The notes under the pieces are model-generated. The model did not search any database, was not told the origin of the DNA, and saw nothing but the letters and a program-made list of their open reading frames with translations. Position numbers and translations under genes: made by a program. From IMG/VR virus record IMGVR_UViG_3300034685_000141, positions 1-29,897 of that record: a DNA stretch of 29,897 nt, one strand, 5' to 3'. The stretch is from a virus. Shown piece by piece: positions 2,106 through 19,279 of the stretch (position 1 is the stretch's first letter; each line of letters opens with the position of its first letter).

Positions 2106-2106
2106 C

Positions 2107-2514: not shown

Positions 2515-2867
2515 TAAGGACCCACCACCTTATCAAATACAATATATTGCTGGCCACCTTGCACTCGGAGAAGTAATACTTTATCTCCTACCTGTAACCC
2601 CGAGCGAATTATGATCTTATCTGGCAAAGCTTCACCGGTAGTTTTCTGACTGCCGTCATCGGAATAAGAATGAACATGTTTTAGATCTACTTCATGCCGG
2701 GTTAAACTCTCCGGCACTACTAAAACCTCTTTGGGCAGAACCATCCTTTGATTTACCTCTATCCTTAAAGGGTCAATATTTATTACCTTACCGAAAGAAA
2801 TAGCCACAGGATTAGAGGCATTCATTGCATCCAACGCCGCCTTTTTAGCAATGGTTATTATATTCAT
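2514..2867 (-). CDS. xkdR: Tail protein, XkdR-like (DUF2577)
   Basis: A 117-residue protein of the DUF2577 family found between the hub protein and the wedge genes of PBSX-like tails. It contains VAISFGKVINIDPLRIEVNQRMVLPKE, then a charged loop, and ends in GDKVLLLRVQGGQQYIVFDKV, a beta-barrel (OB-like) pattern typical of the family. It probably forms part of the hub or spike base. ATG at 2867 directly follows the stop of the XkdQ-like gene. Confidence 0.85.
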   Translation of the reverse strand: MNIITIAKKAALDAMNASNPVAISFGKVINIDPLRIEVNQRMVLPKEVLVVPESLTRHEVDLKHVHSYSDDGSQKTTGEALPDKIIIRSGLQVGDKVLLLRVQGGQQYIVFDKVVGP

Positions 2868-2868
2868 G

Positions 2869-3846: not shown

Positions 3847-3855
3847 CTCCTCAGA

Positions 3856-4494
3856 TTAAGGCAGTTTTAAAACTTGACCTGGATAGATAAGATTAGGGTT
3901 GCTAATATTATTAAGTTTTGCAATTTCAGAATACCTGCTACCATCGAACAAATGCTTTTTGGCAATTGCCCAAAGGGTATCACCGCTTCTTACAGTATAA
4001 GTTTTTGGGATCTCTCTTTCTACCGGCCGGGCAGGAGCCCTATTGGACATTATTTGTACAGCTCTTTCCGTATTTTGCTTAACTTCTAATTTTTTAGCCT
4101 TATAGGGAACATACCTCTTAAGCTTGATACTATAATAGATGTCCCCAGGTTCCCCGCCTTTTTCTTCTATTTCAAAGTTTTCAATACTGCACAGTGTATT
4201 AATATCTAAAGTACTTCCTGTGAATATAAACCGTATTACTTGTTTACTTTCTTTCCATCCAAGTATCTTGTTTATATAAAAAACTGGCCTAAATTCAGCT
4301 GAATAAGGGAAGTAACTGTCAAAACTTATCTCGTTTAACTTAGGATTTTTCAGTAGAGATACTTCCCCCAGGTTAACTAATTCAAAGGTTTTATTTCCAC
4401 TAGGATAAGTAAATTTTATTTTCTCAGGCAATTGAGGTAAGCTAAAACCCTCAGCACCACCGTTTACACTAAGGTACATAGCATATTTAGCCAT
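3856..4494 (-). CDS. xkdP: Tail hub/spike protein with LysM, XkdP-like
   Basis: A 212-residue protein whose C-terminal 49 residues are a complete LysM domain ([17 protein letters not shown]...[14 protein letters not shown]). The N-terminal part (residues 1-150) matches the XkdP type, in which LysM fastens hub proteins to the baseplate. I chose the ATG at 4494 (MAKYAMYLS) because it directly follows the tape-measure stop and has a GAGGGGG site upstream. A longer frame starting at 4533 would overlap the tape-measure gene by 38 bases. Confidence 0.9.
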
Positions 4495-4495
4495 A

Positions 4496-6154: not shown

Positions 6155-6176
6155 ACTCTCACCTCCTGGCTATAAC

Positions 6177-6202
6177 AAAAGCACCCAACTTATGTTGAGT
6201 GC
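6177..6202 (-). terminator. Intrinsic terminator after the moron
   Basis: On the minus strand a 9-bp stem (GCACTCAAC / GTTGGGTGC, one G-T pair) with an ATAA loop is followed by TTTTGTTAT. It lies just after the stop of the 6214-6702 gene and just before the ribosome site of the tape-measure gene, inside the late operon. Confidence 0.65.
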
Positions 6203-6213
6203 CTAATTATTAT

Positions 6214-6702
6214 TTATCTTTCCGTATTGTATTTTAAAGTATAAAATTTGCTGAATATAAAACTGTGTAGCATTTTTGCTTCTCTTTGGTTACATTTAAA
6301 AATTACATTTTCATTTTTATTTTGTATAACTAACAAATGATCACTTTGGATATCTTTACCCATCCCAGACATGCCACCGACAACTGCACCCAATGGTCCA
6401 AGTAATAAACCACCTATAGCAGCTCTACCAATAACAGATTTATCACTTTGGAATTCACTTATTGTTTTTAAATTAATAGTTTCTATTTCTTCATCTAGAA
6501 CATAATAACATTTACCTTTGATAAATGGCCCTCTTATATGTGATACTAACAATCCTTTTTCATATTTTGCAAATTCAAATACTTCTGCATCTTCTCTCTT
6601 AGGGAAATCATTAAGGCCTTCAATCAATTGCACCGTAGCTGCATACTTCTTTTTTTCCTTACCCAATACCTCTTTAATATCTTTCTTATCAATCTCCAAC
6701 AT
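6214..6702 (-). CDS. Moron: glycine-zipper protein of unknown function
   Basis: A 162-residue protein not recognised as part of tail assembly. Residues about 110-133 (GRAAIGGLLLGPLGAVVGG...) form a glycine-rich hydrophobic segment of the glycine-zipper type. The flanking parts look like a compact alpha/beta domain ending in an amphipathic region. It interrupts the otherwise conserved order chaperone then tape measure, has its own promoter-like sequence upstream and a terminator downstream, and could therefore be expressed in the lysogen. A membrane- or envelope-related role is possible but unproven. Confidence 0.65.
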   Translation of the reverse strand: MLEIDKKDIKEVLGKEKKKYAATVQLIEGLNDFPKREDAEVFEFAKYEKGLLVSHIRGPFIKGKCYYVLDEEIETINLKTISEFQSDKSVIGRAAIGGLLLGPLGAVVGGMSGMGKDIQSDHLLVIQNKNENVIFKCNQREAKMLHSFIFSKFYTLKYNTER

Positions 6703-6719
6703 ATAATCACCCCGTAGTA

Positions 6720-6749
6720 TTTATATGGTAATTATATGTATTCTATCAA
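6720..6749 (-). promoter_or_regulatory. Sigma-70-type promoter for the moron
   Basis: On the minus strand TTGATA (6744-6749) and TATAAA (6720-6725) are separated by 18 bases, five of six matches in each box. The predicted start near 6713 gives a short leader with a GGGGTGATT ribosome site before the ATG at 6702. Confidence 0.6.
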
Positions 6750-6770
6750 AAAATTCCTTTTCCTTTAATT

Positions 6771-7372
6771 TTACCTCCTTCTTCTTCCTCTTATTCTATT
6801 TTTTATAATTTCTTCTTTTTCTCTTTTTAGATATACTTTAATACTGGCAATAATAAAAGCCTTTTCTTTGCGACTTAAATTAGCAAATACGCTGGGAAGC
6901 ATTTTAAGTTTATGGAGGGCATAGTGGGCAAAATTTGCCTCACTATCTCCCTCCTCTATTAGTTTTTTGCTTCTTCTATCAGTTCATCCATGCTTTTATC
7001 ATAACCGTTTATCTCACTGACAATAGCAAATAACTCAGCATACTCACCGTCTAACATCTTGCCCTTCATAGCCTTTAATAAATTTTCTGCGCCCATTACA
7101 CCCCAGGCTTTTTGTAATTCTTCATTCCTAAAATCAGGATAGACAGTGGTCTCAATGATTAACTTTTCCATATAAGAGTCCTGGTCAGTACTGACCTGCT
7201 TTTGCCCTTTATAGATTGACACCTTCCGGCAGCTCTTTCTTATTTCATCACCCTTAGTAGCACTAATTGGCTTAAATTTCATTTTCTTTTCCTTGCCACC
7301 AAGTTTAATTGACCTTTCTATAACTTCCGCTTCCTCAAAATCCTCTATTAGAAAATCTTGAAATTCGCTCAT
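6771..7372 (-). CDS. Frameshifted long tail-assembly chaperone
   Basis: The long form arises by a -1 frameshift at the end of the XkdN-like gene. The ribosome reads A_AAA_AAC (6962-6968), slips back one base and continues for 63 codons to a TAA at 6771-6773, giving about 200 residues. The extension (LIEEGDSEANFAHYALHKL..., then MLPSVFANLSRKEKAFIIAS) is helical and looks like the second part of other phage tail chaperone pairs of the lambda G/GT and SPP1/PBSX types. No start codon with a ribosome site serves this part alone. In such phages the long form binds the tape measure while the short form coats it. Confidence 0.82.
6914..6968 (-). promoter_or_regulatory. Programmed -1 frameshift signal
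   Basis: The slippery heptamer A AAA AAC lies in the zero frame at 6968-6962, directly before the TAA stop. Seven bases later a long stem-loop spans 6954-6914: GGAGGG pairs with CCCTCC, ATAGTG with CACTAT and GGCAA with TTGCC around an ATT loop, with only small bulges. Heptamer, spacer and structure fit the standard -1 frameshift layout. Confidence 0.85.
6959..7372 (-). CDS. xkdN: Tail assembly chaperone, XkdN-like short form
   Basis: A 137-residue protein placed between tail tube and tape measure, as is XkdN in PBSX. It is mostly helical and acidic, with the typical beginning (IEDFEEAEVIERSIKLGGKEKKMKFKPIS in shortened form), a DSYMEKLIIETTVYPDF segment and VMGAENLLKAMK. It should coat the tape measure during tail assembly and be absent from the virion. 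Its last codons are GCA AAA AAC TAA, which form the frameshift site. The ribosome site is AGGAGGGGG before the ATG at 7372. Confidence 0.85.
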   Translation of the reverse strand: MSEFQDFLIEDFEEAEVIERSIKLGGKEKKMKFKPISATKGDEIRKSCRKVSIYKGQKQVSTDQDSYMEKLIIETTVYPDFRNEELQKAWGVMGAENLLKAMKGKMLDGEYAELFAIVSEINGYDKSMDELIEEAKN

Positions 7373-7383
7373 GTTTCCCCCTC

Positions 7384-7845
7384 CTAGTAACTTAATTCAT
7401 TAAAGCTATCTAAAATATCGACATCTTCAAAGGTAAATGGAATTTCCTCCTCAAGGAATTCTGCATCTGCATCCATTAAAGCCATAATAACTTCATCCAG
7501 GTTTACCCTTTTTAATAGCACGGTTTGGTTTCCAGCGGGGCTAGCCTCATCATCGTTTATTACCTGAACATCAAAGTAAGCATCTATCCCTTTTTTAATG
7601 TAGTCCAACATTATTTGTCTAAACATGCTGGTCACATAATAAATGGTCATAGTACCTGTTCCGCTCCATCCCGTAGCTTTATGTTGGGTGGCCCGAGAAC
7701 CAATTACTCTTCCTTCAGATTTGTTTTTTATCACCTTGGCTTCAATTTTTTTAACATAAAACATTTCGTAAACCCTGCCATTAATAGTCATAAAAGCCCT
7801 AGCCTCTGAACCACTAATAGTATCACTGAGATTGAAATTAACCAC
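7384..7845 (-). CDS. xkdM: Tail tube protein, XkdM-like (DUF2001)
   Basis: A 153-residue protein with the tube signature: ISGSEARAFMTINGRVYEMFYVKKIEAKV, then KSEGRVIGSRATQHKATGWSGTGTMTIYYVTS and a C-terminal EEEIPFTFEDVDILDSF. It polymerises as hexameric rings inside the sheath. It directly follows the sheath gene with no gap, as in PBSX (xkdK-xkdM). Length is normal for the family. Confidence 0.92.
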   Translation of the reverse strand: MVNFNLSDTISGSEARAFMTINGRVYEMFYVKKIEAKVIKNKSEGRVIGSRATQHKATGWSGTGTMTIYYVTSMFRQIMLDYIKKGIDAYFDVQVINDDEASPAGNQTVLLKRVNLDEVIMALMDADAEFLEEEIPFTFEDVDILDSFNELSY

Positions 7846-9165
7846 CTACCTCACCTCAACCTTCATATATATTTTCTCTATAGCATCTACTGGCTGAATA
7901 TATAGATCAGCCCGCACTGCATCTATCTCAGCCCCAGGAAGCACCAGGACATCGGTTTGAGCATCAAAATTTTGAATTGCATTAATATCCTGCAATAAAT
8001 TTAAGTACTTAATCAACTCACCTTTAAAGAGATTTCTACCATCGGCATTGTTATTTACCTTACCAATATAGTAATTATCAAAAATACTTTTAGCGTCGTT
8101 TGCTATACTGTCTAAAACTCTAATAATCCTATTTTTACGAAATTCCTTGCCTTTTTCTGAAGTAAATGAGGTCAATGTATTAATATCCTGCTCAACAATG
8201 GCCGTACCTTTATTAGCAACAAATACAAATTCGCCCGCTTTTAAAGCGGTTTCAATTTCACTATTTGTGTAACGGGTATCCACATCTACAGCATCATCAT
8301 AAGCTGTATAGGTTAAAGACTCATTTACATTAGCTCTGGCAGTGGCTCCCGCTACCCATGCTACTGCTTTTTCAGCTGGAACAACAGTAGTATCAGCTAA
8401 AACAACCCCGTTCTTTACAGAAATCACACCTTCAAAATCAGCAACCGAGTAATTTTCTACCACCAACTGCACCTTCTTACCTTCCTGATCACGCAAACGT
8501 TTTATAAAGGAAACAAAAACGCTTTTTAAAGTAGCATCCTTTGAAGGAAGGGCCATCGTGTTAAACTCATAAGGTTCAATGATAGCCAAGTAATTAGTGT
8601 AGTCTTCGTTACTTACTTCTCCATCAGTTCCTCCTTCGAGTTTTATCCCTGCTGTGGCAGCTAAATCACCACTTCCCGAGAAGTTAACAAAATTATTATT
8701 AACTAGCTGCTCTACTTTTCCAACTAGCTCCTGTTTATCTACTTCTTTTCCGTCAAGAAGAGTTATTACATCAAATTTTGTTTCATCCTCAATATTTACT
8801 TGAATAACAATAGAAAGTTTATTACCTTTAGTTCCGCTATACTTAGCAGTAGCAGTCAAAACTCCACTGGTTGCTGTAGCCTTTACACCAGTATTTGCTC
8901 TGTATAATAGCAAAGTTCTAGCTCTTTTAAATACCTCTTTTATTAATAAAGCTTCAGGATCAGTTATGTTTATTCCAATCTTGTCAAATAAATTATCATT
9001 AGCCTTTATCTCAATTACTTTTTTTTCAGGTCCCCAGGGTAAAACTAAAGGCATTGTTACAACTCCCCGCTCACCAAGAGTTCCCAATGCCTTTTGTGCT
9101 GATACAAAATTAATATATACACCAGGTCGCACTTTATTTTCCGTAATCCAAGTTCCTCCCGCCAT
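7846..9165 (-). CDS. xkdK: Tail sheath protein, XkdK-like
   Basis: A 439-residue contractile sheath subunit. The start (TWITENKVRPGVYINFVS) is the standard sheath N-terminus, and the end carries the usual conserved block (GEFVFVANKGTAIVEQDINTLTSFT, then KEFRKNRIIRVLDSIANDAKSIF and the C-terminal PVDAIEKIYMKVEV strand that clasps neighbouring subunits). Its presence shows the tail is contractile. The small gene before it ends three bases upstream. Confidence 0.95.
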   Translation of the reverse strand: MAGGTWITENKVRPGVYINFVSAQKALGTLGERGVVTMPLVLPWGPEKKVIEIKANDNLFDKIGINITDPEALLIKEVFKRARTLLLYRANTGVKATATSGVLTATAKYSGTKGNKLSIVIQVNIEDETKFDVITLLDGKEVDKQELVGKVEQLVNNNFVNFSGSGDLAATAGIKLEGGTDGEVSNEDYTNYLAIIEPYEFNTMALPSKDATLKSVFVSFIKRLRDQEGKKVQLVVENYSVADFEGVISVKNGVVLADTTVVPAEKAVAWVAGATARANVNESLTYTAYDDAVDVDTRYTNSEIETALKAGEFVFVANKGTAIVEQDINTLTSFTSEKGKEFRKNRIIRVLDSIANDAKSIFDNYYIGKVNNNADGRNLFKGELIKYLNLLQDINAIQNFDAQTDVLVLPGAEIDAVRADLYIQPVDAIEKIYMKVEVR

Positions 9166-9167
9166 CG

Positions 9168-9332
9168 TTATTTCACCTTACTTCCCTTAAATTTCTTTAT
9201 CATGCCTTTGGCCTCCTTTATGCCATAGGTTTTATCATTTGCTAAGATAGCATTTAAGATGTCCTTTTCAATCTGGGTAAAATGTTTAGATTGTAAAATT
9301 TGCTCCTTGCTATATTTAACTATTTTAGACAT
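9168..9332 (-). CDS. Small tail-cluster protein upstream of sheath
   Basis: A 54-residue basic protein (MSKIVKYSKEQILQSKHFTQ...). The pattern YSKEQIL-SK-FT-IEKDIL-AIL followed by a Tyr and a KEAK helix is familiar from small proteins just before the sheath gene in Firmicutes contractile-tail phages. The ATG at 9332 overlaps the end of the tail-terminator gene by eight bases and has a GAGGAGG site inside that gene. Function unknown; possibly a tail assembly factor. Confidence 0.75.
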   Translation of the reverse strand: MSKIVKYSKEQILQSKHFTQIEKDILNAILANDKTYGIKEAKGMIKKFKGSKVK

Positions 9333-9756
9333 CTTTTAATCTCGCCTCCTCTATTAAGGTCTGCATAAAGGGTTCTACTGCTTTTCCCTTCCGCAGACCC
9401 AACTCCAGATCTATAAGAAAGTGTAAAACATCGTCTACTACCCTATGCCTTTTTTCAGCGATACGGTATTTTTCCGTGCCCGCTTCCAACACCTCAACTT
9501 CTTCATAAAACTTTTGGGTAACGATAAAAAAATCGTTATTCTTATTTTCATTGTGTTTACCGTTAAAATAACTTATATCCAGGCTCACCCTAAATTTATA
9601 TCGCCGGTCTATCTCCTTTTTAATTTCGGAAGAAATTACATTAATATAAAAACAAGGTTCTTTTAAATTTTGTTTAGTAAATTCATCATAGACATATTTG
9701 TCAGGAAATATTTCTTTTAGCCTTTTTACCAAGGCACTAACTATTATTCTAATCAT
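9325..9756 (-). CDS. Tail terminator-like protein (DUF6838)
   Basis: A 143-residue protein of the DUF6838 type (IIVSALVKRLKEIFPDKYVYDEF, then KEPCFYINVISSEIKKEIDRRYKFRVSLDISYF). Position just before the sheath and after an HK97 gp10-like gene matches tail terminator proteins that cap the growing tube and sheath. It overlaps its upstream neighbour by four bases. The terminator role is inferred from position. Confidence 0.75.
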   Translation of the reverse strand: MIRIIVSALVKRLKEIFPDKYVYDEFTKQNLKEPCFYINVISSEIKKEIDRRYKFRVSLDISYFNGKHNENKNNDFFIVTQKFYEEVEVLEAGTEKYRIAEKRHRVVDDVLHFLIDLELGLRKGKAVEPFMQTLIEEARLKDV

Positions 9757-10256
9757 TTTATTTTCCCCAATACCTTGCTAGAAATTTCTCTGGCGGCTTT
9801 ATCAAGTCTTCTTTGAGCCCTTTTTTCGGCGTTATACACCATAAAGTGACCTTTAACAAACCTTGTTTTTTTGCCAACATATATTCCCCCTTTGGCATCA
9901 GGATTATAGACAAAGCGACCTTTTTTAAACTCTCCTGGAACAAAGTGAGGGGTTACCCGGTGTCCATATTCCACATAAGGAGCATACTCATTATTGGTAT
10001 ATACTTCTGCCGAATATACGCCCTTACTTTCTGTAACTTCATCAGCTACAAATGTTTCATCGGGATTATCGGCATTAAAGTTACCCCGTAATAATCCGGT
10101 ATCTACTGGAGTATTTCTTTTAATATCTGCCACCATCATTTTGGCATTTTCTTTTACAGCCTCTCTCATCAGCTTTTCTGCTTCTTCTTTGAGTTTAATA
10201 AGATTATTACGAAACTCCTTTAAGCCTTTGGTACTCATATCAAACCACTTGGTCAT
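9753..10256 (-). CDS. Neck protein, HK97 gp10 family
   Basis: A 167-residue protein. A helical N-terminus (KGLKEFRNNLIKLKEEAEKLMREAV) is followed by the family hallmark NTPVDTGLLRGNF and then EYAPYVEYGH. HK97 gp10-type proteins sit at the head-tail neck. The ATG at 10256 overlaps the previous gene by four bases. The minus-strand frame within it at 9758-9943 is only a shadow. Confidence 0.88.
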   Translation of the reverse strand: MTKWFDMSTKGLKEFRNNLIKLKEEAEKLMREAVKENAKMMVADIKRNTPVDTGLLRGNFNADNPDETFVADEVTESKGVYSAEVYTNNEYAPYVEYGHRVTPHFVPGEFKKGRFVYNPDAKGGIYVGKKTRFVKGHFMVYNAEKRAQRRLDKAAREISSKVLGKIK

Positions 10257-10606
10257 ATTCGTTCCTCACGAAGCAAGGGTAATTCTTGGTGAGAAGTATA
10301 AACAAAACTTTCTCCAGCCCAAAACCGTCTTGTTTTCCCGCTGGCTCCTATAGTTATTTCAAGCTCATCCCCCGCTAATATTTCAAAATCTGGAGAAAGA
10401 AAAAGGATATGTTCGCTCCTAATAGAAGTATGGGCTTCATTTTCCAGGGGATTACTACTTTTACTTTGGCTTAATGCACAGCTTATTCCCTGATAAATTA
10501 ATTGCCTTACCTGTTTAGTAATACCATATTCATTCTCTGAATTTGCTCTCCGATAAACATCGCAGCGATCATTATAAGTGGCTTCTAAAATTTCTTTTTC
10601 TGTCAT
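10253..10606 (-). CDS. Head closure / neck protein
   Basis: A 117-residue, beta-rich protein with no membrane segment. Its place, the second gene after the capsid cluster and before HK97 gp10, and its features (NDRCDVYRRANSENEYGITKQVRQLIYQGISCALSQ, later ILAGDELEI) fit the SPP1 gp16 / head closure group that seals the portal after packaging. It overlaps both neighbours by four bases. The family is inferred from position and motif. Confidence 0.68.
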   Translation of the reverse strand: MTEKEILEATYNDRCDVYRRANSENEYGITKQVRQLIYQGISCALSQSKSSNPLENEAHTSIRSEHILFLSPDFEILAGDELEITIGASGKTRRFWAGESFVYTSHQELPLLREERI

Positions 10607-10932
10607 AGCACCCGCACCTTCCGGTAACGATTTAGTTCCCTACTATGATCAATTACTACTTTGTCAATAAATTCATCAGCTTTGGAAGCATATTTTATCG
10701 TTGTATCTCCCCGCTTAATTTCCTGAACATTGGCCGCAGAAGGAACAGTAACATTATATAAATCAACAACCATTGCGACCCAAACGAACATAAGTCCTGC
10801 GGGAACTGTAGTAATGTTGCAATAATTTTTTATCTTTATCTCTATTTGATTAATAAAACTATTTAAAATATCATCTTTGGTATCATCATTTTTTAGCCCC
10901 AACCTTAACTTTACCTCTTGCAAGACATCCAT
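10603..10932 (-). CDS. Head-tail connector protein (gp6-like adaptor)
   Basis: A 109-residue helical protein. It starts MDVLQEVKLRLGLKNDDTKDDILNSF-like, with a helix ending in IEIKIKNYCNI and later MVVDLYNV, the usual build of phage gp6/gp15-type adaptors that add a ring below the portal. It comes shortly after the capsid gene, behind a hairpin (10966-10992), with an AAAGGGGG ribosome site about nine bases before the ATG at 10932. Confidence 0.75.
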   Translation of the reverse strand: MDVLQEVKLRLGLKNDDTKDDILNSFINQIEIKIKNYCNITTVPAGLMFVWVAMVVDLYNVTVPSAANVQEIKRGDTTIKYASKADEFIDKVVIDHSRELNRYRKVRVL

Positions 10933-10965
10933 TTTAAAGCCCCCTTAAAGGAGTTGAAAAGAGGT

Positions 10966-10992
10966 AAAGCACTGGTTATTTACCAGTGCTTT
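10966..10992 (-). terminator. Hairpin terminator inside the head operon
   Basis: An 11-bp perfect stem (AAAGCACTGGT / ACCAGTGCTTT) with a five-base AT-rich loop, followed on the minus strand by TACCTCTTTTC. The poly-U run is poor, so termination may be partial. It lies between the small post-capsid gene and the connector gene. Confidence 0.5.
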
Positions 10993-11047
10993 TAACACTC
11001 TTTTTATTATCCTCCGGTTTCCTCTCTTCTTCCTTCTTTTTATCATC

Positions 11048-11203
11048 CTACCCATTTTCAGTATTAGCGTTCTTAGTTTGTGCTTTTTCCTTTTGCTTTG
11101 CAGATTTTTCTTCTACCAACTCAAAGCCTTTACCCAAAAGTTCATCCCTTTTATTCTCAGAGTCCACTATCTTGACTACATTAAGCTTTTTTAATTTAAA
11201 CAT
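11048..11203 (-). CDS. Small Lys/Glu-rich protein after capsid, amber end
   Basis: A 51-residue protein starting MFKLKKLNVVKIVDSENK with GKGFELVEEK in the middle; the first part looks folded, the rest is Lys/Glu/Gln-rich and probably disordered. It follows the capsid gene with a GGGGGAGGTTAAGGG site. It ends in TAG at 11048-11050, yet the same frame stays open for 23 more codons (DDKKKEERKPEDNKK...) to a TAA at 10976-10978 in the loop of the hairpin. The tail has the same composition as the gene body, so the TAG may be a nonsense mutation or a read-through site. Function unknown; head decoration is a guess. Confidence 0.65.
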   Translation of the reverse strand: MFKLKKLNVVKIVDSENKRDELLGKGFELVEEKSAKQKEKAQTKNANTENG

Positions 11204-11218
11204 CCCTTAACCTCCCCC

Positions 11219-12145
11219 TTAAGCTAAGGCCTGCTTACAGTTCACCCAAATACCATCCCATTTATTTTTAGGAATCCAAAGATCATGGTACTTTCTGTAA
11301 TCAATCTTCCATGCGTTAGCCTTCTGGTTAGTATTTGGATCAAAGATGCGGATAACATCAGTTTTGGATATAGCTAATACTGCCCTCCTAGCAGTAATTA
11401 TCCAGTTAATATCTTTAGCTCCTTCATCTGCAACGAATCCACCGGCCTCTTGCCCTTCTGTTTTACCATCATTAAATACATAAGCCGTTTTCATTCTGGC
11501 AGAGGGAACACGGATGATAGGAATATTATCAATAGCCTTAACCTTAAAACTTACTTCACCTTGTTTAAAATCAACTACATCAAGACTTTTCTTAACCTCA
11601 TCAGCTTGGCTTAGGATTGTAGCTACAGGAATACTCATAGTTATAACCAATTCCTCATCTTCACCAACTATATCCTGAACACGGGCAATATCATCTTGTA
11701 GTTTAGAAATAATATCCGTTTTAGCAGGAGTATAACCACCAGAGGCTTTACTGTTGGCAATGGCCCCCGCTCCAATACTCGAATACCTGTAAGCATCAAC
11801 TTCTGGGATAACCTTGGTTCTCTGGAACTCTCCTAATACTGCCCCGGCAGTTACTACAAAATTAGTTTCATCCACATCCATAGAATCTATGGAAAAGGTT
11901 CTACCCCTATCCTGAGTTAATTGATGGGTTTCCCAACTCAAGGTAACGCTGCCATCTACAAAGCCGTTAGTACGGTCATAGTCACCTAGCCCATCCATAA
12001 GAATACTGGGGATTTTTACTTCATTACCACCATTGTACTTAACCAAATTACTGTTTGGTTCCATCCAGCCGGAAGTAGCTGCAGCCAGCATCTGTTTATC
12101 CAGCTCAGTTTGAAATACACTTGCATACTCTAATACATTTGCCAT
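11219..12145 (-). CDS. Major capsid protein
   Basis: A 308-residue protein opening MANVLEYASVFQTELDKQM, a start seen in many HK97-fold capsid proteins of Firmicutes phages. It has the expected NGGNEVKIPSILMDGLGDYDR region, followed by TLSWETHQLTQDRGR and a central ETNFVVTAGAVLGEFQRTKVIPEVDAYRYS helix block. There is no protease gene or N-terminal delta domain, in line with a separate scaffold encoded just upstream; stop and start overlap by one base. Confidence 0.92.
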   Translation of the reverse strand: MANVLEYASVFQTELDKQMLAAATSGWMEPNSNLVKYNGGNEVKIPSILMDGLGDYDRTNGFVDGSVTLSWETHQLTQDRGRTFSIDSMDVDETNFVVTAGAVLGEFQRTKVIPEVDAYRYSSIGAGAIANSKASGGYTPAKTDIISKLQDDIARVQDIVGEDEELVITMSIPVATILSQADEVKKSLDVVDFKQGEVSFKVKAIDNIPIIRVPSARMKTAYVFNDGKTEGQEAGGFVADEGAKDINWIITARRAVLAISKTDVIRIFDPNTNQKANAWKIDYRKYHDLWIPKNKWDGIWVNCKQALA

Positions 12146-12744
12146 TATCTAATCCCTCCATTTAACGCATTTGCGAATTGTTCTCTAACCTTATCAGTGC
12201 CGGTTAGAGTTTTAGTTGTGGTTTCAGGGCTTTTGCCGGCTAATCTTTTTTCCACCTGTTTTTGTACCGCCTGGTCAAAAATTGCCTTAAAACTTTCCAC
12301 CCGCTTAGTGGTATTTTCTAAATCATCTGCCAATACCATATCCAACACATCAGCGGGCAATTCTTTTTCAGCCAACAGCTTCAAAGTATCGGCTTTTAAC
12401 TCCCTTAGAGCTAATTCCTTTTCTCTTTTTTCCAATTCAGCCAGTCTTTTTTCTTGCTCATACTTTTGCTTTTCATCAGCTGTCATTTTTGCAGTTTTTA
12501 AGGCTTCTTCTTTGGCAGCTTCCAAAGCCTGTTTATGCTGTTCATTTACTTTGGCCAACTCATCTTTAATAAGCTTTTGCACATCCTCTTCAGTGTACGT
12601 TTTTACTTCAGCTGGCGGTTGATCTGCCGTTTGATCTGCCGGTTGATCTTTCGGCTGGTCTGTTGGCGGAGTACCTCCTGGATCTGCCGGCGGTTCTGCA
12701 AACATTTGTAGATTAAGCTTCATTGTTCTTTCTAAATCAGTCAT
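12145..12744 (-). CDS. Capsid scaffolding protein (DUF4355-like)
   Basis: A 199-residue, highly charged protein with an almost wholly helical centre (about residues 50-165, coiled coil rich in Lys and Glu), preceded by a Pro/Asp/Gln-rich linker with DQPADQ-type repeats. This is the usual scaffold build next to a capsid gene. The ATG at 12744 has an AAGGAGGG site nine bases upstream. Many homologues start at an MKLNLQMFAE-like motif, here at 12723, so that internal start is an alternative, although its ribosome site is weaker. Confidence 0.85.
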   Translation of the reverse strand: MTDLERTMKLNLQMFAEPPADPGGTPPTDQPKDQPADQTADQPPAEVKTYTEEDVQKLIKDELAKVNEQHKQALEAAKEEALKTAKMTADEKQKYEQEKRLAELEKREKELALRELKADTLKLLAEKELPADVLDMVLADDLENTTKRVESFKAIFDQAVQKQVEKRLAGKSPETTTKTLTGTDKVREQFANALNGGIR

Positions 12745-12916
12745 CGTTTTTGCCCTCCTTACTATTATTTATTACAGCTCCCATATAGCCACCCAATGCA
12801 CCGGATACTGCAAGAGCTATCTCGTTATAGCCTTTAAAAACGGCCAAAACAAAACCTAATCCTAGAAAAACTATTGCCACTAAATCATCCAATCGAGTCT
12901 CCTCAAACTTAAACAT
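12737..12916 (-). CDS. Small two-helix membrane protein, holin candidate
   Basis: A 59-residue protein with two hydrophobic segments (about residues 12-27, DLVAIVFLGLGFVLAVF, and 32-49, EIALAVSGALGGYMGAVI), a short turn and a charged tail (NNSKEGKNDD). The ATG at 12916 has an AAGGAGG site. The stop overlaps the scaffold start by eight bases. Size and two-helix form suit a small holin or spanin-like membrane protein, but the amidase is 6 kb away, and the gene sits between head genes, so the lysis role is tentative. Confidence 0.65.
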   Translation of the reverse strand: MFKFEETRLDDLVAIVFLGLGFVLAVFKGYNEIALAVSGALGGYMGAVINNSKEGKNDD

Positions 12917-12941
12917 TTCTCTTTCCTCCTTTTAATTTTTA

Positions 12942-12990
12942 TTTAGTTTTTTTGGCAAACTAAAAAGAGCCACCGAATAGGTCGACTCTT
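12942..12990 (-). terminator. Tandem hairpins, probable partial terminator
   Basis: On the minus strand a stem at 12990-12962 (AAGAG-TCG-CC against GG-GGCTCTT, two G-T pairs and one bulge, TATTC loop) is followed by TTTTTAGTTT. A second 8-bp stem TTTAGTTT/AAACTAAA (12964-12942) follows at once. They separate the MuF-type gene from the membrane protein, scaffold and capsid genes. Confidence 0.5.
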
Positions 12991-13017
12991 TATGCACAAT
13001 AGCATTGATTACCAAAG

Positions 13018-13055
13018 CCTTTAATTTGCCTTTAATCACCTTTAATTTGCTTTAA
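13018..13055. repeat. Helically phased CCTTTAAT repeats
   Basis: CCTTTAAT occurs at 13018, 13029 and 13039, with a related CTTTAA at 13050, a spacing of 10-11 bases. The surrounding 200-base gap (12917-13115) holds no supported gene. The same ATTAAAG core, also with 11-base spacing, recurs in the left-end region (29573-29590). Confidence 0.55.
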
Positions 13056-13115
13056 AAATCTTAATCAATATATTTATTCGTCTAGTCTTTTAAAAAGCTT
13101 TAAAAGCCTTTTTAG

Positions 13116-14150
13116 TTATTTAGGATCGTTAATATTGTTTACGTACTTTTTATACCACTCTTGATAGGTCATATTAGCAGGAACTTTGTAATATTTCCTA
13201 TCATGTTTAGCTAACCGTGTTTCCGGTTCCAGATCCTCATAATTAACAACAGGAATTGTTGTTGAACGACAATTTGGATGCATAGGCGGGTAGTTTTTTC
13301 CCACCTGAGCTTCCGAGAGTTTAAACCTTTTCCCATCCAAACTAGCACAAATTTTACTAGTCCTTAAATCCAGTGTTGCAAGGTACTTATACTCATCTTG
13401 TCCCATATCTTCATAACTTTTAATAGTAGCTCTATTATGCACATAATTACTTTCTGTCCGTATTAACCGCTTGGCATTATTAAAACTTGAGCCCATGGCT
13501 CTTTGGAGCTTAATGGCCATCTTGTCATTACTTTCCCCAAGGATAACACCTTGAGTGATTATTTGCTCCACATTCCGGGCTAATTGCTGGCGATGTTTGC
13601 CCCATATAATCTCAGAGTACGATGCACCACTCCAAGCAATATTAATAGCTGTCTCAATTGCCCTGGTATCAAGTTTACTAAAGCTCACGCCAAAACCTAA
13701 ACCCTTTTGAATTTCATAAATATTGCGGTAATATGTATTTTTATAAACCTCACCAAGCGTATTATGGGTTAATATTTCCTCTTGTTCATAAAGTTTTGTT
13801 ACCTCCTTTTCTATCTGTAGTCTAAGAGCTTCTAACCTTGTTATTCTCTGTTTTTTGCTGAACTTATTAAGAAGTGCCTGGGCTACAGGATCATTAATTT
13901 TTTCTACTAGTTCTCGATACTGTTTTAAAATAAGGTTTAGCTCACTTTTATTTAAAGCTTTTTTAGCTTCTACTATAGATAAGCCGGTTTCATCGGCATA
14001 CTTTTTATAGAAATCCTCTAACTGTTTTTGAATGGTTTTTAAAGCTTTTTTATACTCCCTTTCCAAGACTTTAATCTTAGCCTCGGTATAATTAATAGTC
14101 TTCGCACTATTTGCCAAGGACCTTTTCATCCAGTAGTAATCACTCTTCAT
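13116..14150 (-). CDS. Minor head protein, MuF / SPP1 gp7 type
   Basis: A 344-residue protein with a helical N-terminal half and a C-terminal Mu-F domain: RLIRTESNYVHNRATIKSYEDMG, then KYLATLDLRTSKICASLDGKRF and NYPPMHPNCRST. These are the hallmark blocks of the family, which joins the portal and enters the capsid to assist DNA ejection. Start overlaps the portal stop by four bases. No C-terminal toxin domain is fused. Confidence 0.93.
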   Translation of the reverse strand: MKSDYYWMKRSLANSAKTINYTEAKIKVLEREYKKALKTIQKQLEDFYKKYADETGLSIVEAKKALNKSELNLILKQYRELVEKINDPVAQALLNKFSKKQRITRLEALRLQIEKEVTKLYEQEEILTHNTLGEVYKNTYYRNIYEIQKGLGFGVSFSKLDTRAIETAINIAWSGASYSEIIWGKHRQQLARNVEQIITQGVILGESNDKMAIKLQRAMGSSFNNAKRLIRTESNYVHNRATIKSYEDMGQDEYKYLATLDLRTSKICASLDGKRFKLSEAQVGKNYPPMHPNCRSTTIPVVNYEDLEPETRLAKHDRKYYKVPANMTYQEWYKKYVNNINDPK

Positions 14151-15520
14151 ACTGTATCACTTTCTAAATCTTTTATAACCTCAGCGTCAATTGTGCCTAG
14201 TTTCTCCTCTTCCTCTTGTTCCTTTCTCACTCTTCCCAGTTCTTCATCGGGATCATCTACAAAAGGCAAAAGCCCAAACAATGTTTCCCTACTGACTAAC
14301 CCAGCTAATGTTCCTACTATTTCGGCAGCCTCTTTATCATTTTGGATCATATTTCGGTTAAAAATAAATTCCACCTGGTCGGCATCAAAATTGGCATTCA
14401 ACTTAACATTCAATGCCGAGGTAATTAGCTTAATTTTTTTCTTCTGTGCTGCAGAAAACTTATTCTCTTTAATTACAGCCAGTTGTTCCAAACCGATTAG
14501 CTTATACTTTATAGCTACACCGCTCAGATTACTGGCAAAGCTCTCATCAGTTAATGCCGGTACTTGAGAAAGGAAGAAAATATCGTTATACACCCTATTT
14601 TTAAAATTCTCCACCGCAGTATCGTTGACATCTTTTATCAGCCATTGGGCTTGGCCATGTTCATCTAAAAACAATATTCTTTCCTGTTTTAAAGTTTGAA
14701 CAGCCTTAGTTTCATCTTCCTCTCCTTCAGAAGTTACTAAACCACCCCCGGCCCCTACCACAACCAAATACGCATCAGTAAAATATTCAAAATCATTTGC
14801 CGTATCGGATTGGCTCTTATCGTAGGCATCAATCAAGGTGATTACATCCTCATAATCTCCTTTTCTTTCAGCATTATTCCAATAGACTATAACCGGTACA
14901 TCACTAAAATTGTGACCTCTTTTTTCCTCTTCAACCTCTATAAACTTTTCTTTATCCTTTTTAAAGAGGAGAATCTCTTTTTTGGTATATACCTCGGCAT
15001 AGCTAGTAGTCTGTTCAGAAATAAGATCGTATTCCTGCCAAAGCCTGATTGCAAACTCTAAGAACTCCCCTACACTAGTTGAATAAACAGGGATAAAATC
15101 TTCTGCCCCAAATTTCTTGCTTTTGATTTCACTCTTTTCATTGAAGTACAAGAGTTCATAAGCTATGCCCTTTTTACTCATTTCTTTAGCTATTTCAAAA
15201 TTTATATCTTTAGTATAGTTATTATCTAAAACTTCATCCAAAGCATCTTTGAATTTTGAATCTTCCACATCATATCGAATACCCTCTCCCATAAAGTAAC
15301 CAGTAGCCATATTGGAAATATACTTAGCAAACCCGTGGGCTATTTTATTATTTGGTTTTTCTGAAGGCAGAGCTCTTTTAAGGATTTCATTCTCAACTTG
15401 GTAATATTGTTCTAGCTTTAAAAGTCTTGGTAAATACCTGTCCTCAAATTCTTTCACTATAGCTGTTACTAGATCGTTAGTAATAGTTGTGTTAGGTTTA
15501 ACCTTTATAATCCTAACCAC
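14147..15520 (-). CDS. Portal protein, SPP1 gp6 family
   Basis: A 457-residue portal of the SPP1 gp6 type: the N-terminal KIAHGFAKYISNMATGYFMGEGI block, NAERKGDYEDVITLIDAYDKSQSDTANDFEYFTDAYLVV in the clip/stem region, and the C-terminal acidic tail EQEEEEKLGTIDAE. It forms the dodecameric DNA channel. Start overlaps the terminase stop by 16 bases. This is an SPP1-type portal rather than the portal (gp29) of Mu, a sign of mosaicism. Confidence 0.92.
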   Translation of the reverse strand: MVRIIKVKPNTTITNDLVTAIVKEFEDRYLPRLLKLEQYYQVENEILKRALPSEKPNNKIAHGFAKYISNMATGYFMGEGIRYDVEDSKFKDALDEVLDNNYTKDINFEIAKEMSKKGIAYELLYFNEKSEIKSKKFGAEDFIPVYSTSVGEFLEFAIRLWQEYDLISEQTTSYAEVYTKKEILLFKKDKEKFIEVEEEKRGHNFSDVPVIVYWNNAERKGDYEDVITLIDAYDKSQSDTANDFEYFTDAYLVVVGAGGGLVTSEGEEDETKAVQTLKQERILFLDEHGQAQWLIKDVNDTAVENFKNRVYNDIFFLSQVPALTDESFASNLSGVAIKYKLIGLEQLAVIKENKFSAAQKKKIKLITSALNVKLNANFDADQVEFIFNRNMIQNDKEAAEIVGTLAGLVSRETLFGLLPFVDDPDEELGRVRKEQEEEEKLGTIDAEVIKDLESDTV

Positions 15521-16977
15521 CTCCGCTTTCCAACCTTCGCTTTCTTCTTGCCCTTGACATCACCATTTATAAATTCCACTAAACCAGTTATTGCATCGGC
15601 CGGATCATCATACTCATTTTTGCCCTTTCGCTGATATTTACTTATTTCTTTATAAAACAGGGGGAATTTTCTTTTCCAACCTTCCGGCATAATAATTTGC
15701 TCCATGACGTTAGAACTGTTAACCAGTATCCTAGTCTTTTTATTTTTACTCTGGTGGAACCAGGTGACGCTACATTTTTTATTTTTTAGCTTTTTTAATT
15801 CCTTTTCTACATTTCGGGCAAATCCTCGGCCACCGTTGTTACTTTCGATTAAAGCTTCCCTTACACCATGCAAATCTAACCTTCTGGCTGTTTCCGGTTC
15901 TGTTTCTTCCATAGGTTCATCGGTACAATAGACATCCAGTACATACCCGTATCTACCTATTACTCCGGCACTAATACTTACTAGGTAGTCAGTTCCTGTG
16001 TCAGCGGTATCAGTGTAGTTAATAATTCTTTCAAAACTATCCGGATCAACGACATCATAAGTTTTAAATTCACCATACAAGCTACCTTTTTTATCGATTG
16101 GCTCTTGCATGTAGTTAGCCAGCCAAATATCTTCATCAAGCGTTGCCTTCTTTTCCAATAGGTTAGCTGTAGAATATAAATCCTCACATAAACTTCTTTC
16201 ATCCACTAATGCCGGCATTTTTAACTCATAACACCTATCAGGGAAATTGGACAATAACCTTCCCGCTAAATCATCGCTGGCCCAGCGGGTTTGAATAATA
16301 ATCTGTATTGCACCATCCAGCATCCGGGAAGCAAAAGTATTTTTATAAAAATCCCAGTGTTTTTCTTTAACCCGCTCATTTAACGCTTCTTCGGCATTTT
16401 TGATAGGATCATCTATGATGCCGATGTTTCCTCTCATACCGGTAATAGAGCCATCAAAAGAACTGGCTAAATAACTCATATAGGCTCCGTCTAGGCTCCA
16501 TAAGTTCATAGCGCCATCACCAGGCTTTATCTTAACATTGGGAAAAAAACTATTAACTACAAAATAGTTATCATCACCTTTGATTTCCTCATCCTCAATA
16601 GCATCACGCACTGACTTGGCAAATCTAGTGGAAAGAATTTGGTTATAACTTACTGTAATAACTTGGTTTTGAATGCTTTGGCCATAGGCCCAGGTCGCAA
16701 ACATTACACCGGTGTAAGATTTACCAAACCCGGGAGGAAGGTTTAAAACCAAAATGTCATAGGGCTTGCCCGTCTTGGGATTAATGAGCCTTTTTTCATA
16801 CATGGCCTGCATTGTATCACAGACTATACCCTGGTACTTTCGATGAGGTTTAAAAAAATCAGGATTTATAGCCATACAATATTCATGGAAATTCTTCTTG
16901 CCCCGCTCAATCACTCTTCTTCGCTGAGGGCTGATATCACCACCAGAAAGTTCCTTTAGTAGGCTCAAATTAATCAC
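15505..16977 (-). CDS. terL: Terminase large subunit
   Basis: A 490-residue packaging motor. The ATPase domain has Walker A at residues 81-89 (PPGFGKSYT), an adenine-binding TVSYNQ segment and Walker B at about 186-190 (GIIDD). The nuclease domain follows at about residue 320 (NYTDTADTGTDYLVSISAGVIG) with a later DVYCTDEP strand and a final DDPADAITGLVEF acidic site. Head-full packaging with host flanks, as in Mu, is expected for a transposable phage. Starts right after the small subunit. Confidence 0.95.
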   Translation of the reverse strand: MINLSLLKELSGGDISPQRRRVIERGKKNFHEYCMAINPDFFKPHRKYQGIVCDTMQAMYEKRLINPKTGKPYDILVLNLPPGFGKSYTGVMFATWAYGQSIQNQVITVSYNQILSTRFAKSVRDAIEDEEIKGDDNYFVVNSFFPNVKIKPGDGAMNLWSLDGAYMSYLASSFDGSITGMRGNIGIIDDPIKNAEEALNERVKEKHWDFYKNTFASRMLDGAIQIIIQTRWASDDLAGRLLSNFPDRCYELKMPALVDERSLCEDLYSTANLLEKKATLDEDIWLANYMQEPIDKKGSLYGEFKTYDVVDPDSFERIINYTDTADTGTDYLVSISAGVIGRYGYVLDVYCTDEPMEETEPETARRLDLHGVREALIESNNGGRGFARNVEKELKKLKNKKCSVTWFHQSKNKKTRILVNSSNVMEQIIMPEGWKRKFPLFYKEISKYQRKGKNEYDDPADAITGLVEFINGDVKGKKKAKVGKRRWLGL

Positions 16978-17523
16978 CTACCCTTTTAGATCATTTTCGA
17001 TTTTTTCCACTAGAGAATTAATTCTTTCTAGTAGCTCGGGATGCTGTTTCAACTCTTTAGAAAGGCTTTCTTTAACCTTACTAACAGCAGCATCTACACC
17101 TTTGTCAAACTCAAACTTGAGTTTTTCACGGCTTACAGCGGAGCGTTCCAGCGTTGCTAAGGTTCTAATGGCAGCTAGCGTATTTTTATCTATATTTTCA
17201 CTATCGGCATTAACCAGCATATCCATTAAAAGCTGAAAAGCCACCATAGAAGATGCTTCTGCCATATCCAGCTTTAATCCGGCAGACGTCTCAATGATGG
17301 ATCTGGCCTGTTCCTTAGCCCTACTAATACTTTCAAGTTTTGTTAAAAATTTTTTACCATAACGTTCTACAGATTTTTGGCTGATATCGTGACCAGCTTC
17401 TTTGATAAGCAAGGTTATTTCCTTATAGGTCATCCTTTTGTTTACTATGGCATCATTAATAGCTTCTCTTAACTCACTGGGCAATTGGTCAATTTTACTA
17501 TGGCTCCTATTTCTCTTCATCAT
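16978..17523 (-). CDS. Terminase small subunit, Mu gp27-like (DUF3486)
   Basis: A 181-residue protein of the DUF3486 family. It shows the family start (SKIDQLPSELREAINDAIVNKRMTYKEITLLIKEAGHDISQKSVERYGKKF in shortened form), a helix-turn-helix to recognise phage DNA, followed by a helical oligomerisation part. Pairing with a large terminase is as in Mu. It overlaps the upstream gene by four bases. Confidence 0.88.
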   Translation of the reverse strand: MMKRNRSHSKIDQLPSELREAINDAIVNKRMTYKEITLLIKEAGHDISQKSVERYGKKFLTKLESISRAKEQARSIIETSAGLKLDMAEASSMVAFQLLMDMLVNADSENIDKNTLAAIRTLATLERSAVSREKLKFEFDKGVDAAVSKVKESLSKELKQHPELLERINSLVEKIENDLKG

Positions 17524-17825
17524 AAATCAACCCCAGTATCTTCAACCGTTCCCTCCGCTAAATCAACGCCTTTAGTAGTTAATTTATATATCTCATTTTT
17601 TAAGATATCTTGACCAAAGGCAGTCTTCCCAAAATCCCTTTTTTCAATAAATCCATCCTCTGTGAGATAGGCGATACTTGCCCAAAATTCCTTTTCTGTG
17701 ACGGAATACCCTAAGTCGCAAAGTTGCTTATGTATACTTTTTGCCTCTAGTCCCGCCGGATACGCCCTTTCTAAGATTCTTACTATCCAACCTCTAACTT
17801 TTTTATTATGATCTGTAAATAACAC
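17520..17825 (-). CDS. Winged-helix protein, Mu-like late gene
   Basis: A 101-residue protein with an evident winged helix-turn-helix: VRGWIVRILERAYPAGLEAKSIHKQL, then SVTEKEFWASIAYLTEDGFIEKRD and a wing leading to YKLTTKGVDLAEG. Small wHTH proteins of this type stand before terminase genes in Mu-like phages (Mu gp26 region). It may help regulation or DNA packaging; there is no direct evidence. It overlaps both neighbours by one to six bases, so translation is probably coupled. Confidence 0.72.
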   Translation of the reverse strand: MLFTDHNKKVRGWIVRILERAYPAGLEAKSIHKQLCDLGYSVTEKEFWASIAYLTEDGFIEKRDFGKTAFGQDILKNEIYKLTTKGVDLAEGTVEDTGVDL

Positions 17826-18124
17826 TACTTACCACTCCTCTCTCCTGTTAATTTTCCTATATCCTTTTGAATTTCCAGCAAAAGATCTTTGATATAATCG
17901 ATTTTGTTTTCCAAGGCATTGATATCCCGGTAATGTTCATCTCTGGTGATGAAAAGCCTATAAAGTTCTTTCTGGTTGTCATTCACCTTTTCTTCTAGTT
18001 CCTCCACCCGTGCTTCATTCTTTTCCTGGCGTTTTTCCGATGTTTCATAAAACTTTTTTAGCGTCCAGGAAATATAACCTATAGCTATAGTTACCACGAT
18101 GTTAAATATGCTGCCAAAATCCAT
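17825..18124 (-). CDS. Membrane-anchored coiled-coil protein (gp25-like)
   Basis: A 99-residue protein with one N-terminal membrane helix (residues 4-22, GSIFNIVVTIAIGYISW) and a long charged coiled coil (residues 25-90). This build is found in DUF2730-like proteins of Mu-type phages and in XhlA-like accessory lysis proteins. It is the first gene of the late operon after the terminator, with an AAAGGAGGGAGG ribosome site about 11 bases from the ATG. A holin-accessory role is possible but unproven. Confidence 0.65.
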   Translation of the reverse strand: MDFGSIFNIVVTIAIGYISWTLKKFYETSEKRQEKNEARVEELEEKVNDNQKELYRLFITRDEHYRDINALENKIDYIKDLLLEIQKDIGKLTGERSGK

Positions 18125-18156: not shown

Positions 18157-18203
18157 AAAAAAAGGCACAGTAAACCATCCAGAAGGATAGTTTAAAGGCC
18201 TTT
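18157..18203 (-). terminator. Strong intrinsic terminator before late operon
   Basis: On the minus strand a base stem AAAGGC/GCCTTT and a 10-bp inner stem (18194-18185 with 18180-18171, TTCT loop, one G-T pair) are followed by seven U residues and AUAUUU. It lies between the nusG-like gene and the first late gene, so late transcription from upstream must pass it. Confidence 0.82.
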
Positions 18204-18219
18204 ATAATCCTGCATCACC

Positions 18220-18242
18220 GGTTATGGCCTAAACACATAACC
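18220..18242 (-). promoter_or_regulatory. Leader hairpin, possible NusG/LoaP loading site
   Basis: GGTTATG pairs with CATAACC around a nine-base loop, 3 bases after the nusG-like stop codon and 16 bases before the terminator. It has no U tract, so it is not itself a terminator. LoaP-type factors are known to need an RNA hairpin in the leader of target operons; that this is such a site is inference. Confidence 0.45.
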
Positions 18243-18244
18243 AA

Positions 18245-18742
18245 TTACATCAGTGCTTTTTGAAATTCCACTCCAACCCATGTACGCTTTTTTTCTCCTG
18301 ACAAGTCAAATTCCAGAAGAACCTTTTTCTTGCGTCTGTCCAATTTAACTATTTTATTCCTGTATTTTTCTATTGGACCAATAAACTTCAACTTACCCTG
18401 CTCGTTATATTCAACTATACTCTTTTCTTTAAAGTCATTAATAAGAAGAATATACTCCATTTCTTCGTCTGCAATCGGTTGTTTCAAACCACTGCCTAAA
18501 AAATATAATACAAACCAGGTATTTTTAATTAAGTAATATAGCCAATAGTCGTCTTTGGGAATTTTAACAAATACATACCCCGGTATAAGTTTTATAATCC
18601 TTTCTTTCCATTTACCCGCTTTATATTCAAATACTCTTTTTTGGGGGATTACAGCTACTATGTCATGTTTTTCTAGTCTCCCCTTGACCTTTTCTTCTTT
18701 GCCGGCAACAACTTTTATAGCATACCAGAATAATGGCTTCAT
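18245..18742 (-). CDS. NusG/LoaP-like transcription elongation factor
   Basis: A 165-residue NusG paralogue. The NGN domain (about 1-105) shows FWYAIKVVAGKEEKVKGRLEK in order, then the family hallmark IPGYVFVKI at 53-61 and NTWFVLYFLGSG at 74-85. A KOW-like domain follows (about 120-150: IGPIEKYRNKIVKLDRRKKKV). NusG-family proteins bind RNA polymerase and favour elongation; LoaP members act on specific operons through leader RNA and antitermination. The gene stands alone between two terminators, just before the late operon, whose internal terminators it could overcome. It is not a host nusG: no secE or L11 genes lie nearby. The ribosome site AAGG is ordinary. Confidence 0.85.
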   Translation of the reverse strand: MKPLFWYAIKVVAGKEEKVKGRLEKHDIVAVIPQKRVFEYKAGKWKERIIKLIPGYVFVKIPKDDYWLYYLIKNTWFVLYFLGSGLKQPIADEEMEYILLINDFKEKSIVEYNEQGKLKFIGPIEKYRNKIVKLDRRKKKVLLEFDLSGEKKRTWVGVEFQKALM

Positions 18743-18757
18743 ATTCTCAACAACCTT

Positions 18758-18794
18758 AAAAAAAATAGACTAGAACATTTTTCGTTCTAGTCTA
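18758..18794 (-). terminator. Intrinsic terminator after mor
   Basis: An 11-bp perfect stem (TAGACTAGAAC / GTTCTAGTCTA) with a seven-base loop, followed on the minus strand by eight U residues. It ends 15 bases before the nusG-like start codon, so the middle transcript should stop here. Confidence 0.85.
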
Positions 18795-18834
18795 ATTATA
18801 TTTCCTATTGATTTAGGTACATAGCTCACTTAAA
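18795..18834 (-). promoter_or_regulatory. Possible Mor-dependent late promoter
   Basis: A perfect TATAAT (18800-18795) has no -35 box. Upstream lies an imperfect dyad, TTTAAGT (18834-18828) and ACCTAAA (18818-18812), centred about 35 bases before the predicted start at 18788. Mu middle and late promoters also lack a -35 box and carry activator dyads close to this position. The predicted start falls within the terminator arm, so promoter and terminator overlap. Confidence 0.4.
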
Positions 18835-18844
18835 GAAAGACGCT

Positions 18845-19279
18845 TTATATTAAATCAAATAATGTTAGCTGGTTATCGTTACTCTTAATCCTGCAAGAAC
18901 CGCTATTGCCATTTATGATATTATAAAATCTTACTTTAGATATGTTATATTTTTGCATTAGTTTTCTTCGATTATCACCATTATATTCTTCTTTGACTTT
19001 TTTCTCAATGTAATTTTTTAGGAGGTTCTCTTTTTTCTGAAAGTAAATATTGGTCCCGCCGTAGTAAAACCTTAATAACTGGTACTTTTCTTCTCCGATG
19101 GCTTCTATCATTTCCTTGATATCTCCGGTTTTTTTAGCCTTTTCTTCTACATCCAAAGGGATATAAATATTATCACCGCCAAATAACCCGCACAGTTCTA
19201 CAACTGCTTCAATGCCAATAACTTGAGCTATATCTCTCATTTCACCCTTTAGATCATCTAATCCTAAATCGGGGTACAT
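18845..19279 (-). CDS. mor: Mor-family transcription activator
   Basis: A 144-residue protein of the Mor/C family. The N-terminal dimerisation domain has the signature IAQVIGIEAVVELCGLFGG-YIP (residues 17-41), a charged linker follows, and the C-terminal helix-turn-helix is near residues 111-130 (NRRKLMQKYNISKVRFYNII). In Mu, Mor turns on the middle promoter and C turns on late genes; here a single member is visible. A GGAGGTG site precedes the ATG. It is cotranscribed with the amidase and ends in a terminator. Confidence 0.9.
   Translation of the reverse strand: MYPDLGLDDLKGEMRDIAQVIGIEAVVELCGLFGGDNIYIPLDVEEKAKKTGDIKEMIEAIGEEKYQLLRFYYGGTNIYFQKKENLLKNYIEKKVKEEYNGDNRRKLMQKYNISKVRFYNIINGNSGSCRIKSNDNQLTLFDLI

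Follow-up and report, generated by a model that had tools for sequence, protein, structure and literature searches.

A LoaP-like NusG paralogue and its putative RNA hairpin target ahead of the late operon of a Mu-like phage

The closest described counterpart of the locus analysed here is LoaP of Bacillus velezensis (NF033641), an NGN–KOW paralogue of NusG that works with hairpins in the dfn and mln leader RNAs, each followed by an intrinsic terminator and a long operon. LoaP has been studied in antibiotic operons. It counteracts NusA and binds a UNCG-type hairpin of the dfn leader that read-through requires; its residues E40, R41 and I143 matter, and it has been described as the one NusG-like protein in bacteria for which association with a particular RNA element is known (PMC12691694). 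In the dfn leader, RNA polymerase is also reported to pause after the hairpin and before the terminator, and deletion of the pause weakens antitermination. RfaH, acting at ops, is likewise a NusG paralogue that enables polymerase to finish a long operon, but RfaH is an autoinhibited protein that recognises non-template DNA and works inefficiently at intrinsic terminators (PMC7819879). Phages encode processive antitermination of their own in lambda N/nut and Q, although these proteins are unrelated to NusG paralogues and N needs boxA/boxB together with host Nus factors. Phage Mu has a Mor-family activator (Mor/C) ahead of its late region and no NusG paralogue annotated in the region of its genome that we examined. 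We found no description of LoaP in phages in the open-access literature, outside which the original LoaP and LoaP–RNA papers lie, and regard LoaP-type antitermination in a phage late operon as a provisionally new setting of a known mechanism.

The window, by which we mean the whole stretch of 29,897 bases that was analysed, carries the gene set of a Mu-like phage: a Mu transposase, an MuB-like AAA protein, Mor, an Mu gp27-like TerS, an SPP1-type portal, Mu F, a contractile sheath and baseplate J. On the minus strand, an amidase gene is followed by mor, a TATAAT box with an intrinsic terminator, a 165-aa ORF, a hairpin, a further terminator, a holin-like ORF and the head and tail genes (Table 1). 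The late operon comprises the 99-aa holin-like ORF, a YjcQ-like ORF, TerS, TerL, portal, Mu F, capsid genes, sheath, tail and baseplate. The mor product matches Pfam PF08765 (Mor) with 54.9 bits, over the gathering cut-off of 24.9, as well as PHROG 836, late transcriptional activator. The locus thus shares with B. velezensis LoaP the succession of paralogue, leader hairpin, terminator and long operon, but here the gene belongs to a phage late operon, next to that of a Mor activator, and the hairpin directly follows the factor's own stop codon; the window also differs in having a UUAG loop, no bulge, a protein score under the curated cut-off and no copy of a second leader element, GGCGAAGC, considered below. 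Apart from this locus, a 129-aa ORF at 21197-21586 (minus strand), which starts MKLYHFTSEHLLPDILKQGI, resembles a small ADP-ribosyltransferase-type or DarT-like protein and is a candidate for such a function.

Table 1. Features of the window discussed in the text, with their positions
Feature	Position	Strand	Remarks
Window, Mu-like phage	29,897 bases		Whole IMG/VR record IMGVR_UViG_3300034685_000141
mor, Mor/C-family late transcription activator gene	18845..19279	(-)	Directly upstream of the nusG paralogue
TATAAT, candidate -10 of a Mor-dependent middle/late promoter	18795..18800	(-)	Sequence
Intrinsic terminator between mor and the nusG paralogue	18758..18794	(-)	Perfect 11-bp stem 18794-18766 plus T8; fold z -5.5
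LoaP-like NusG paralogue, 165 aa, NGN + KOW	18245..18742	(-)	Pfam, NCBIfam, Foldseek, tree
Putative LoaP-class RNA hairpin TTGGTTATG-TGTTTAGGC-CATAACCGG	18218..18244	(-)	Directly after the stop codon; 9-bp stem
Candidate box GGATTATA behind the hairpin, loosely conserved (relatives: GRRAACAUA)	18203..18210	(-)	Weak
Bipartite intrinsic terminator with a final T7, before the late genes	18157..18203	(-)	Fold z -4.9
Late operon, presumed target	65..18124	(-)	~18 kb
Terminator-like 11-bp hairpin between late genes	10966..10992	(-)	Possible further antitermination target
Terminator-like 11-bp hairpin between late genes	6179..6204	(-)	Possible further antitermination target

The 165-aa protein is a NusG paralogue closest to LoaP. 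As the original prediction had proposed, it contains the NGN hallmark IPGYVFVKI and a KOW region and lies before the late operon: Pfam NusG matches it with 58.6 bits (cut-off 22.2), and an AlphaFold model built on an alignment of phage homologues (mean pLDDT 92.6) shows an NGN domain and, at the C-terminus, a KOW region made up of strands. The kinship with LoaP invoked at the time also holds in a comparison of curated NCBIfam models, among which LoaP scores best at 89 bits, yet under its curated cut-off of 125; we therefore file the protein as LoaP-like. NusG (52.9 bits), UpxY (47.1) and RfaH (16.4) score lower. Membership of the housekeeping NusG family (TIGR00922) would take 135.7 bits, and host NusG falls in a separate clade (support 100/100); RfaH (TIGR01955) would take 144.5 bits, and the KOW region is predicted as strands and no GGCGAAGC or ops-like motif lies 3' of the gene. 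The LoaP model matches all 15 aligned phage homologues, one of which, in prophage L124, exceeds the cut-off (162 versus 125 bits). The top Foldseek matches of the window protein are three chains of 8f5g, described as a NusG-RNA complex, with both domains superposed (TM 0.71, rmsd 4.2) and RfaH and NusG structures ranking below, so that the predicted NGN plus KOW fold resembles that of a solved NusG-RNA complex. In a maximum-likelihood tree, the window protein and those of L107, L004 and L018 form a clade (97/90) that joins bacterial LoaP (92/85), apart from housekeeping NusG; support is weak for the deeper order and for the position of the proteins encoded between terS and terL. NusG-like proteins of phages are not novel in themselves, because PHROG 6386, which matches the protein, already carries the name transcription antiterminator.

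Relatives of the locus were obtained through TerL scans; scans of IMG/VR with the factor or Mor as single proteins found nothing, and tblastn against INPHARED and PLSDB gave weak, partial matches only. The factor occupies one of two positions. In type A loci it lies between mor and the holin-like gene, as in the window, L004, L107 (= L007) and the near-copies L018, L092 and L093. In type B loci it lies just before terL, as in L008, L014, L017, L021, L094, L108, L110 and the prophages L124, L150 and L151, and also in L101, where it comes after another gene; in the first seven and L124 it stands between terS and terL rather than after mor. Many close TerL relatives have no such gene (L002, L009 and L100, as well as L102-L106). 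The Mu-like prophages of Paenibacillaceae (L124, L150 and L151) resemble the window in their phage setting and in a hairpin directly after the stop codon, but their LoaP exceeds the cut-off, its gene lies between terS and terL, and GGCGAAGC is present; L124 moreover has a different TerL downstream.

Directly after the factor gene, the RNA of the window can form a hairpin whose arms, TTGGTT/AACCGG and ATG/CAT, flank the loop TGTTTAGGC, with no bulge and with UUAG in place of UNCG. The positions originally given for this hairpin and for the terminator behind it proved right, and both are part of the structure predicted for the RNA (-35.5 kcal/mol, z -4.4, with none of 200 shuffles as good). At the same place, L004, L018 and L107 have a more elaborate structure, consisting of a stem P1, a bulged A, a 3-bp P2, a bulged U, a G-C pair, a U.G pair and the tetraloop UGCG, in which the loop TGTTGCGGC is constant and the stem sequences vary. 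A UNCG hairpin of fixed architecture occurs -31 to +27 nt from the stop codon at 10 of 14 phage loci, the window aside (L004, L018, L107, L014, L124, L150, L017, L021, L094 and L008); the scan itself covered 13 loci besides the window, 10 of which matched, and L151, a near-copy of L150 and L124 outside the scan list that also has the hairpin, is a fourteenth only if counted. The background was 28 matches in 690,778 nt, or 0.0077 per 190-nt window. The pattern was guided by the type A loci, L014 and L124, and the hairpins of L008 and L021 had been spotted by eye beforehand; those of L017 and L094, which lie inside the end of the coding sequence, were found by the scan. By the scan used, L101, L108 and L110 have no hairpin.

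The stems covary. Across 15 hairpins (11 phage and 4 bacterial, the L021 and L094 rows having small flank or bulge slips and not being found as exact strings), 94.6% of P1 and P2 positions are paired, whereas 2,000 permutations of the 3' arms averaged 45% and reached 73% at most. A tool-built alignment of 17 sequences, A7, which leaves out L021 and L094, is 92.9% paired, with changes on both sides in 9 of 10 pairs and covariation exceeding that of all 500 shuffles. The covariance models R1 and R2 did not recover the window's copy at a significant score, because the bulge and the C of UNCG are absent there; its assignment therefore rests on its place, its 9-bp stem and an identical loop, TGTTTAGGC also capping the bacterial LoaP hairpins L133, L134 and L153. 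On this reading of the sequence, the leader of the window would carry a UUAG variant of the UNCG-type hairpin. The window also appears to depart in the protein: at the RNA-contact residues E40/R41, assigned by motif and without an alignment to the B. velezensis sequence, it seems to have E-Y where most phage homologues have E-R. The two changes may or may not be linked. The box after the hairpin listed in Table 1 comes from a comparison by eye with L004, L018, L107, L014, L124 and bacterial leaders. Rfam gave no meaningful match.

The same hairpin is found in the leaders of bacterial loaP genes, the reference here being Paenibacillaceae LoaP leaders and not the B. velezensis dfn hairpin sequence itself. 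The bacterial set consisted of genes over the curated cut-off in 150 genomes, all from the family to which Paenibacillus sanguinis belongs. Model R2, trained on hairpins from both phages and bacteria, has a match at most about 1 kb from loaP in 16 of 20 bacterial regions of 20 kb each; for 15 of these the E value is <=0.03, and for one (L172) it is 0.34. The training set includes several of these regions and lacks others. R2 had no match in 469 kb of DNA from control phages that lack the factor. Some bacterial hairpins are found at a distance from loaP, upstream of the gene or on the opposite strand. R1, run over 391 genomes of a Firmicute class, gave chance-level matches only, with no adjoining NusG gene. 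A DNA pattern combining the hairpin with TGANGATGGAA was also tried on IMG/VR and set aside; it returned the known phages and coincidental matches without a NusG gene. Separately, the genome of Bacterium D16-56 (G013) contains 16 matches to LoaP/NusG models, several of them paired.

Two intrinsic terminators enclose the factor gene. Neither mor upstream nor the terminator behind it (18794-18766) featured in the original prediction. This mor-proximal terminator lies about 24 nt 5' of the ATG and abuts the TATAAT box, an arrangement in which a -10-like box adjoins the terminator after mor at 15 of 22 related mor loci including the window (about 1.4 expected), specifically at 10 of 11 loci with the factor and 5 of 11 without. 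The Mor-family activator probably drives the late promoter. The start expected 6-8 nt past the box would fall inside the 5' arm, and a transcript initiated there would then be unable to form the full terminator; RNA started further upstream could form it, which would insulate the late region from early transcription in the absence of an antiterminator. Mu also has predicted terminators at its activator-dependent promoters Pm and Plys, but these precede the start, whereas that of the window is expected to overlap it. We considered the mor-proximal terminator as a target of the LoaP-like factor and set it aside, as it is also present in phages that lack the factor and the predicted start would lie within its 5' arm. 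Of the three distinct closest relatives, one (L107/L007) has a counterpart of the late terminator beyond the hairpin; in L004 and L018, the hairpin has no U-tract terminator behind it. The late terminator is therefore not a required part of the arrangement. The late switch envisaged in the original prediction is thus partly supported: a LoaP-like factor and a conserved, covarying hairpin of the LoaP class stand, and the strong terminator as a conserved component does not.

Autogenous LoaP-type processive antitermination of the late operon is the reading that we favour, with a probability of about 0.74, because a LoaP-type protein is combined with the same kind of hairpin as bacterial LoaP targets; the protein and hairpin come from sequence and comparison, and from them we infer the read-through. 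Mor would activate a promoter just upstream of the nusG paralogue, and RNA polymerase would transcribe this gene and then the UNCG-class hairpin that starts at its stop codon. The protein would bind the hairpin at its own stop and remain on polymerase, where, by analogy with Bacillus LoaP, it would counter NusA. Polymerase could then pass the late terminator and later ones, finishing the head and tail operon; two terminator-like hairpins between late genes (Table 1) may be such targets, although the number of these hairpins in the late region is not above that in shuffles. The order of hairpin and then terminator may act as a delay switch, in which the first rounds of transcription yield mainly factor and later rounds read through. 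In relatives without the terminator, the factor–hairpin pair would serve processivity alone.

Several other readings must be weighed. It is unlikely, in our view, that the hairpin and terminator merely end the factor mRNA, with the late genes served by their own activator-dependent promoter after 18157 and the factor acting elsewhere, on late transcripts generally or on host genes. Such a layout would be ordinary, in that a strong terminator stands right behind a regulatory gene; a TATATT adjoins its T-run, and the middle and late promoters of Mu come after predicted terminators. Promoters of the Mor/C type often have no -35 box, so that our scan of the late-operon strand from the late terminator to 16202, which found no sigma70-type promoter (at least 9 of 12 positions matching), would miss one. 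However, the first hairpin belongs to the LoaP class, covaries and is kept without a directly following terminator in L004, L018, L014 and L124, and comparison of the relatives by eye shows no conserved promoter-like box at this site. We consider it very improbable that the protein is an autogenous repressor or attenuator, limiting its own expression or affecting mRNA stability through hairpin binding with no antitermination. The hairpin does lie in the 3' region of the factor's own gene, within the coding end in L017 and L094, but the LoaP–hairpin pair that has been studied antiterminates (PMC12691694), and bacterial hairpins also occur at other positions relative to loaP, as noted above.

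The second leader element, GGCGAAGC, lies 9-118 nt past the stop codon in 9 of 11 type B loci (L014, L017, L021, L094, L101, L108, L124, L150 and L151), where 0.014 would be expected per 250 nt. It is also present in many bacterial LoaP loci, including L131, L132, L137, L142, L145, L147, L156 and L158. Measured from the centre of the hairpin, its usual distance is 69-83 nt downstream on that strand, as in 10 of the 16 bacterial regions that contain a hairpin. The usual extension of GGCGAAGC is GGCGAAGCYNTG, which shares a GGCG start and a TG end with the 12-nt ops sequence. These features suggest that GGCGAAGC is a candidate pause element, namely the dfn-type pause signal; a full-text literature search found no paper tying it to NusG, the sole match being unrelated. 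Least probable of all is recruitment of the factor through such a DNA pause element, as with RfaH at ops, with the RNA hairpin secondary: the ops-like layout of GGCGAAGC, which many bacterial LoaP loci and the majority of phage loci of the terS/terL type contain, would fit, but the element is missing after the hairpin in the window and the type A phages, including the three closest distinct relatives that retain the hairpin, the KOW region is predicted as strands rather than the helical hairpin of RfaH, and RfaH models score far under cut-off.

Returning to LoaP-type antitermination, it is conceivable, at somewhat less than even odds, that this is a widespread late switch of Firmicute Mu-like phages, carried as a portable cassette of factor and own hairpin, that bacterial LoaP regulons share its origin, and that the standard leader consists of a UNCG hairpin with GGCGAAGCYNTG about 70 nt further on as a signal for pausing or polymerase recognition, the second element having been lost in the lineage of the window. 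If antitermination of this type does operate here, the locus would offer a compact natural system, with factor, hairpin and terminator within 600 bp, and a form of phage antitermination, distinct from that of lambda N or Q, that bears on the origin of LoaP. Further, GGCGAAGC makes the identity of the dfn leader pause testable. Two other features emerged among the phage contigs. NusG paralogues are also encoded in large phage contigs (L095, L096 and L097) with no sign of Mu-like neighbours, and in L009, at about 2740-3070 after mor, a stretch resembling a tRNA gene (GGTTCGAGTCC) is a candidate tRNA locus.
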